Translations under genes and position numbers: made by a program
Assembly: GCF_002257585.1 (NCBI RefSeq)
Contig: NZ_CP022743.1
Span: forward strand, 2,914,001-2,978,000
Length of the DNA: 64,000 nucleotides
Direction of reading: 5' to 3'
DNA from: Mucilaginibacter xinganensis
Lineage (GTDB): Bacteria; Bacteroidota; Bacteroidia; Sphingobacteriales; Sphingobacteriaceae
Notes under the pieces: model-generated
Databases searched by the model: none
The model's input: the letters and a program-made list of their open reading frames with translations, nothing else
What the model was told of the DNA's origin: nothing
Shown here: positions 62,783 to 64,000 of the stretch, piece by piece
Numbering within the stretch: the first letter of the stretch is position 1
How the letters are laid out: the number at the start of each line of letters is the position of its first letter

Positions 62783-63559
62783 TTAGCTTACAAGCGGTGC
62801 CATTACTTTATCCAGGTCCTGCAATTTAACCATGTTTGGACCGTCGCTTAAAGCATTATCAGGGTCAGGATGAATTTCCATAAAATAGCCATCCGCCCCA
62901 AAAGCTTTCGCTGCCAGCGCCATCATGGGTACAAAAGTTCGGTCGCCGCCGGTTTTTCCACCTGCGCCGCCCGGGCGCTGTACGGAGTGCGTACAATCCA
63001 TACAAACCGGGTACCCAAATTGCTTCATATCATGAATATTCCTAAAATCCACAGCCAGGTTATTATAGCCGTACATGTTGCCGCGTTCGGTTAATATAAC
63101 CTGGGTATTCCCGGCTTCAACAACTTTTTGTGCCGGGTAAAACATGTCCTGGCCCGACAGGAACTGTGCCTTTTTAATATTGACGATCTTGCCGGTTTTA
63201 GCAGCGGCAACCAGCAGATCGGTCTGGCGGCATAAAAACGCCGGGATCTGTAAGATATCAAACACCTCGCCGGCAATGGCAGCCTGGTAACTCTCGTGGA
63301 TATCGGTTATCAGCGGCAATCCGAAACGTTCCTTTATTTTCAGCATCATTTCCATGCCTTTTTCCAATCCGGGCCCCCGGTACGAGTGGATTGAGGTACG
63401 GTTAGCCTTATCAAACGACGATTTAAAAACTACAGGTACATTATATTTCTGCCCGGCTTCGGCAACCTTCTCGGCTACAGTGTATAAAAGTTCCTGGTTT
63501 TCCATTACGCAGGGGCCCAGTATAAAGAACGGCTTCTGCCGCATTTGGTCAAATAACAT
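62783..63559 (-). CDS. kdsA: 3-deoxy-8-phosphooctulonate (Kdo-8-P) synthase, metal-dependent type
   Basis: 258 residues, full length. It condenses PEP and arabinose-5-phosphate to Kdo-8-phosphate. PYRGPG-type SYRGPGLEKGM, FKSSFDKANRTS and the end MEIHPDPDNALSDGP are diagnostic. Cys17 in FILGPCVMEN occupies the place of Asn26 of the E. coli enzyme; a Cys there marks the metal-dependent class, as in Aquifex. It heads the kdsA-kdsD unit. A TATCTTTG box lies 20-27 bases before its ATG. Confidence 0.96.
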   Translation of the reverse strand: MLFDQMRQKPFFILGPCVMENQELLYTVAEKVAEAGQKYNVPVVFKSSFDKANRTSIHSYRGPGLEKGMEMMLKIKERFGLPLITDIHESYQAAIAGEVFDILQIPAFLCRQTDLLVAAAKTGKIVNIKKAQFLSGQDMFYPAQKVVEAGNTQVILTERGNMYGYNNLAVDFRNIHDMKQFGYPVCMDCTHSVQRPGGAGGKTGGDRTFVPMMALAAKAFGADGYFMEIHPDPDNALSDGPNMVKLQDLDKVMAPLVS

Positions 63560-63578
63560 AGTGATGGGATATAATATG

Positions 63579-63586
63579 CAAAGATA
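63579..63586 (-). promoter_or_regulatory. -7 box of kdsA
   Basis: The minus strand reads TATCTTTG, a perfect TAnnTTTG, 19 bases upstream of the kdsA ATG. The expected -33 position falls inside the left 8-bp repeat array (63601-63632). Confidence 0.65.
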
Positions 63587-63600
63587 ATTCTTTTTTTTAG

Positions 63601-63717
63601 TCCGAAAGTCGGAAAGTCAGGAAGTCTGAAAGGCGCTGCAATTAGTTCTGCGGGATCTAAAATTCACATAAAAATTCCATTTTTGCTTCCTGACTTTCCG
63701 ACTTCCGGACTTTCGGA
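63601..63717. repeat. Inverted pair of 8-bp tandem arrays between kdsA and hscB
   Basis: Left array: four units, TCCGAAAG, TCGGAAAG, TCAGGAAG, TCTGAAAG (63601-63632). Right array, read as reverse complement: TCCGAAAG, TCCGGAAG, TCGGAAAG, TCAGGAAG (63686-63717). The arms can pair over most of their length around a 53-base spacer. They lie between divergent genes and cover both -33 regions. Confidence 0.9.
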
Positions 63718-63718
63718 C

Positions 63719-63726
63719 TACCTTTG
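63719..63726 (+). promoter_or_regulatory. -7 box of hscB
   Basis: TACCTTTG matches TAnnTTTG and ends four bases before the ATG at 63731, so the hscB mRNA would be nearly leaderless. The -33 position is within the right repeat array. Confidence 0.55.
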
Positions 63727-63730
63727 CCGC

Positions 63731-64000
63731 ATGAATTACTTTGAGTTTTACGGTATCCCTGAATCGTTTGCACCCGATACAGCATGGCTGAAGAAGAAAT
63801 TTTACGAGTTAAGCAAAAAATATCACCCGGATTTTCATGCTAACGAGGATGATGCCAAACAGCAGGAAATATTAGAGCTTTCTACGCTGAATAACAAGGC
63901 GCATCAAACCCTTTCCGACCCTTATAAGAGGCTGGAATACATTTTACGCACCCATAATTTGCTCGAAGAAGGGGCAAAACCACAACTTCCTTCAGATTTT
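63731..64000 (+). CDS. hscB: Fe-S cluster co-chaperone HscB, N-terminal part (cut by window end)
   Basis: The first 90 residues of an HscB-type J protein, MNYFEFYGIPESFAPDTAWL at the start. The HPD motif of the J domain is in KKYHPDFH, and LSTLNNKAHQTLSDPYKRLEYIL is the HscB-like helix after it. It delivers the scaffold IscU to the chaperone HscA in iron-sulfur cluster assembly. The frame is open to the last base of the window. A generic DnaJ is less likely because of the FYGIPESF start and early KRLEYIL. Confidence 0.88.
   Translation, partial: MNYFEFYGIPESFAPDTAWLKKKFYELSKKYHPDFHANEDDAKQQEILELSTLNNKAHQTLSDPYKRLEYILRTHNLLEEGAKPQLPSDF

Follow-up and report, generated by a model that had tools for sequence, protein, structure and literature searches.

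The STRR of cyanobacteria are short tandem heptamer repeats dispersed between genes and known only as tandem arrays; the arrays of 8-bp GTCNGRAA units described here for Mucilaginibacter resemble them in being dispersed and built of short units, and are set apart by their inverted pairing and by their phase relative to promoters. REPINs, in which RAYT transposases mobilise two REP sequences in inverted orientation (PMC3116915), share with the GTCNGRAA element two inverted short palindromic repeats round a spacer, extragenic dispersal, a predicted hairpin and a high copy number. Bacterial MITEs, especially Correia/NEMIS of Neisseria (PMC2229807), are like the copy situated between kdsA and hscB of Mucilaginibacter xinganensis in being shorter than 200 bp, with terminal inverted repeats, a stem-loop and putative divergent promoters, and the palindromic elements of Rickettsia (PMC2229807) likewise occur both at intergenic positions and as in-frame fusions within conserved proteins. 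As to the promoters themselves, those of Bacteroides have TAnnTTTG at -7 and TTTG near -33, the -33 motif being reported as not found in Flavobacterium johnsoniae (PMC7366714); GTCNGRAA arrays abut the TAnnTTTG of such sigma-ABfr promoters of Bacteroidota (PMC7366714), with TTYC at the usual -33 distance. No description of GTCNGRAA arrays in Mucilaginibacter was found in the open-access papers that were searched.

The kdsA–hscB copy lies at one end of the window (the whole 64-kb stretch of M. xinganensis DNA that was analysed, taken from a genome of 5.30 Mb in a single contig). The gene to its left, kdsA (62783–63559, minus strand), encodes 3-deoxy-8-phosphooctulonate synthase (KDO-8-P synthase; TIGR01362, 357 bits, over the cut-off), with up to 97% protein identity to Mucilaginibacter species. 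The N-terminal part of the Fe-S co-chaperone gene hscB (63731–64000, plus strand) lies to the right, its identity being taken from NCBIfam similarity of the first 90 amino acids, which falls below the curated cut-offs because the gene runs past the end of the window. Between these divergent genes the original prediction had seen four 8-bp units on each side, facing each other across 53 bases, and this is what we find. The left arm (63598–63632, plus strand) consists of TA, then four units in the order GTCCGAAA GTCGGAAA GTCAGGAA GTCTGAAA and a closing G (63600–63632), the N and R states of the four units being CA, GA, AG and TA. The right arm (63686–63720, minus strand) has four inverted units, reading TTYCNGAC on the plus strand (CTTCCTGA CTTTCCGA CTTCCGGA CTTTCGGA C, 63686–63718), and ends in TA, and the spacer (63633–63685, no strand) is 53 nt long. 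The pattern GTCNGRAAGTCNGRAAG, with up to two mismatches, has six matches in the window, all at this locus, far more than in shuffled sequence (mean 0.17, maximum 1).

The element as a whole resembles a MITE in its length of 123 bp, in having TA at both outer ends (TAGTCC...GGACTA), and in its extended 35-nt arms (63598–63632 and 63686–63720), which are 83% complementary; one register of pairing extends over 26 nt at 96%. A long hairpin is predicted for the paired arms (-51 kcal/mol with RNA and -30.5 with DNA parameters), and the left arm folds alone into two mini hairpins (TCCGA-AAG-TCGGA and TCAG-GAAGT-CTGA). A known structured RNA was rejected, a search of Rfam with the element having given only sub-threshold matches to microRNA hairpins, none of which reaches a curated threshold.

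The element is one copy of a dispersed, MITE-like, non-coding inverted repeat family of Mucilaginibacter. Exact triple units occur in the M. xinganensis genome at the kdsA–hscB locus only, and arrays of two units, one mismatch being allowed, are found at about 25 places (33 matches, vs four in a backwards control). Of 111 Mucilaginibacter genomes, 91 have exact doublets (0 to 158 copies depending on the species, with a reversed-pattern control near zero), and triple units were found in 76 of 401 family genomes sampled, mostly those of Mucilaginibacter. Among 2.9 million IMG/VR contigs, a single one (L285, 11889–11913) has a strict triple unit. At the loci inspected, the arms commonly point inward from the two margins of an intergenic region, in many cases 12–25 nt from a start codon or 3–20 nt from a stop codon, and the inter-arm spacers range from 23 to 126 nt; many loci have a single arm, serving one gene. 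The linked genes are unrelated housekeeping genes that differ between species. Arrays are located at promoters, just 3' of stop codons, and in frame within folC, bshC, murF and lysA (names given from reading the translations, without a family search). Arms at the 3' ends of genes point inward as well, which ties orientation to the gap edges, and promoter polarity was rejected as its cause. The original prediction had put forward control local to the two genes, and had allowed for a repeat that happened to land there: the many copies at unrelated places in the genome and genus, some of them after stop codons or inside genes, are what it had itself named as telling against purely local control, and they bear out the repeat.

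In folC, as read from the sequences rather than from a computed alignment, two arms appear to flank a segment resembling the native strand of relatives that have no GTCNGRAA array there. The corresponding loop (L195–L224) carries short-unit arrays that vary from species to species, placed in frame on either side of a conserved segment. Long, uninterrupted repeats of GTCCGAAA were also seen at L049, L059 and L044 (each at 1501; 22, 15 and eight units, respectively), directly following stop codons or predicted gene ends. Within the M. xinganensis genome, arrays of 7-bp units (such as GGTCCAT, CTAATCT, AGTTCAT and GGTCGAT) likewise form inverted pairs between genes (examples in G000 at about 2620915, 2622384, 2623368 and 2823609), and a close inverted partner was found for seven of the 19 intergenic arrays in genome positions 2514001–2978000 (L175–L194 plus the window).

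We turn now to the promoters. TAnnTTTG boxes are present at the predicted -7 position for both genes, and the two promoters are directed outward from the spacer. That of kdsA (TATCTTTG, 63579–63586, minus strand) is 13 nt outside the left arm, and that of hscB (TACCTTTG, 63719–63726, plus strand) begins with the TA directly after the last unit (gap 0), with the ATG 4 nt further on. Counting about 20 nt upstream from either box leads into an arm, in agreement with the earlier claim that the -33 regions lie inside the arms. For hscB the spacing is exact: the TTTC of one unit (63695–63698, plus strand), which would be the -33 element, is at N=20, the same distance as in native promoters (see below), although it reads TTTC and not TTTG. 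For kdsA it is loose, the closest TTTC (63604–63607, minus strand) being at N=17, off the usual phase of these arrays, and the next at N=25.

Across the 111 genomes, a -7 box (CAAANNTA) with an inward array beginning in the next 25 nt was matched 225 times, vs 27 times for the opposite array orientation, both counts including overlapping matches. The gap between the box and the first unit clusters at 7–9, with smaller groups at 0 and 15–17, and 89 of 100 distinct box-plus-gap sequences, each taken once, fall in three of the eight phases (p~1e-26, a value that overstates independence, many of the 100 being from related species). The usual phase puts the TTYC of a unit about 20 nt (19–21) upstream of TAnnTTTG, modulo 8, and in the M. 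xinganensis genome alone eight of nine box–array cases are in phase. A 7-bp array family shows no phase beside the same kind of box, so the phase lock belongs to the GTCNGRAA family. Among native promoters the 69 of M. xinganensis were too small a sample for a -33 search, and pooling 334 other promoters of the genus revealed a peak of TTG at N=19–21 (41, vs about 20 expected; z 4.6). The box lies 3–9 nt before the ATG in 53 of 72 array promoters, which suggests very short leaders, and most promoter-side copies, though not all, have TA before the first unit. The tie between arrays and promoters that had been proposed for kdsA and hscB is thus real as a phase lock to -7 boxes, and extends across the genus.

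The kdsA–hscB gap was compared between species. Eight species have a GTCNGRAA array in the gap (that of the window, with L095, L096, L098, L107, L108, L111 and L114); those with the same arrays align well across it (z-scores 12 to 26), while the fourfold-degenerate sites of kdsA are 42–50% identical. The hscB-proximal outer end CTTTCGGACTAnnTTTG is nearly invariant in the eight, and the left end of the spacer, GNNGCTGCAA, is common to related species with the same arrays. The bases beside the left arm (63633–63642 in the window), of the form GNNGCTG(C/T)(A/G), are common to all eight. One matched double change, in the third unit of the left arm and the fourth of the right, distinguishes the window from L095 and L098. 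Other close relatives (L097, L099, L100, L104, L113, L115 and L124) have a different inverted array, of the ACACGAATT/AATTCGTGT type and reaching the hscB start codon, and the whole gap differs between the array types.

In units flanked by two exact units, the motif is G98 T92 C95 N G99 R A97 A98 (percentages, with N and R variable). Neighbouring units are alike no more often than by chance (51 vs 50.2 expected), and the N bases of adjacent units are complementary in 113 cases vs 81 expected (perfect microsatellites removed), so that neighbouring units can form small hairpins; related loci are pooled in both counts, which are not independent. Slippage as the sole source of units was rejected on these two grounds. 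At the variable positions, the two arms of one locus agree slightly better with each other than do arms taken from separate loci (p=0.036), an excess too weak for arm pairing to be the main constraint. In a close species pair (85–97% identity), the alignable arrays are common to both species, and the differences between them amount to whole 8-bp units or to a few bases, for the most part N and R; no clean empty site or insertion was found in this pair, which shows vertical inheritance in which whole units are gained or lost. One of two close species has about 1.3 kb containing unrelated ORFs at the left arm of a copy (L235, 2833–4101, compared with L244, 9862–9876).

These properties distinguish the arrays from the described systems. 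Unlike REPINs, which have one REP per arm, GTCNGRAA arms consist of 8-bp units in a row, which keep phase with -7 boxes and are present also in frame inside genes, and they show no association with Y1 transposases at 33 loci. Y1 transposases are encoded in 102 of the 111 genus genomes, but no GTCNGRAA arrays were found near the three Y1_Tnp loci of M. xinganensis (about 1.5 kb searched) or near 30 others in the genus (350 nt searched; two or three of these 30 ORFs are not the transposase), and three genomes (G204, G168 and G198) have doublets with no Y1_Tnp match. Membership of the REPIN/RAYT system and mobilisation by RAYTs were therefore rejected. Two neighbouring Y1_Tnp genes of M. xinganensis (L233 and L234; G000 4212713 and 4214039) are accompanied by another palindrome, AATTTAAGCGGGACGCTTAAATT-like and CAAGCATTTTGCTTG. 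Unlike Correia/NEMIS, the arrays have a spacer that is not common between loci and arms that vary in length by whole units, and they would supply only the upstream half of a promoter; neither a target duplication nor a source of mobility was found, the alignable arrays of the close species pair being shared. They are unrelated in sequence to the Rickettsia elements, which are fused as one block, whereas the folC arms seem to flank a native beta-strand. From ordinary sigma-ABfr promoters they differ in having TTYC for TTTG, repeated every 8 bp within a dispersed repeat.

The reading that we prefer, to which we give a probability of roughly 0.6, is that of a dispersed inverted repeat whose unit serves as a putative -33 half beside sigma-ABfr-type promoters. 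The arms are rows of GTC-N-G-R-AA units pointing inward at intergenic edges; where an arm abuts such a promoter, the TTYC of one unit would replace the -33 element, and copies keeping that spacing would stay compatible with transcription and be retained. It is the spacing from which we infer the -33 role; the departure of TTYC from the consensus TTTG counts against it, as does the off-phase kdsA arm (N=17 or 25), so that in the window the model is an exact fit for hscB and a loose one for kdsA. Promoter function cannot explain the presence of arrays as such, since some are located where a promoter would serve no purpose. The preferred reading has to be set against the idea that the repeat is purely selfish, with a promoter spacing that is a by-product of harmless sites and plays no part in transcription. 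The copies that follow stop codons or sit in frame within genes, the wide variation in copy number between species (0 to 158), and the occupation of the same kdsA–hscB slot by other array families in relatives are all in keeping with such an idea, but avoidance of harm alone predicts an array edge near the box (as in the 7-bp family) and not an 8-bp lock at gaps 0, 8 and 16, nor units next to hscB that are nearly invariant across saturated divergence. We consider it unlikely, though it deserves more weight than the explanations that follow.

That the arrays bind a regulator or nucleoid protein reading a GTCNGRAA site every 8 bp, with mirrored arms that let it act on both divergent genes, would accommodate the constraint on each unit with free N and R, the conservation in the kdsA–hscB gap and the fixed spacing to -7 boxes; it is made improbable by linked genes that are unrelated and differ between species, by copies within coding sequences and after stop codons, and by the many single-armed loci. 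Slightly more improbable still is a hairpin or cruciform element in which pairing between or within arms is functional, or in which the arms template each other's sequence. The long hairpin and the mini hairpins inside arms, the excess of complementary N bases in neighbouring units and the matched double change would fit it, but same-locus arms match barely better than others, spacer length is variable (23 to 126 nt), one-armed loci are common, and the two promoters face outward from the spacer. The suggestion in the original prediction that one protein or cruciform acts on both genes gains no direct support from these comparisons, in view of the many single-arm copies and the slight same-locus matching; a cruciform or shared protein may nevertheless control the two genes together.

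Beyond the reading of the unit as a putative -33 half, we put forward only tentatively a broader scheme, somewhat doubtful as it is, in which several short-unit array families form inverted pairs where functional sequence begins or ends, at times enclosing native DNA (perhaps so in folC), and GTCNGRAA amounts to a stock of ready-made -33 halves that may be rewriting promoter upstream regions across the genus. The kdsA–hscB gap, filled by different array families in relatives, provides a test case for array turnover, and the arrays inside conserved proteins are natural insertions for study. Should the spacing reflect use, many unrelated genes within one genus would owe a portion of their main promoter to a dispersed repeat, and this would bear on the tolerance of Bacteroidota for weak or missing -33 elements.
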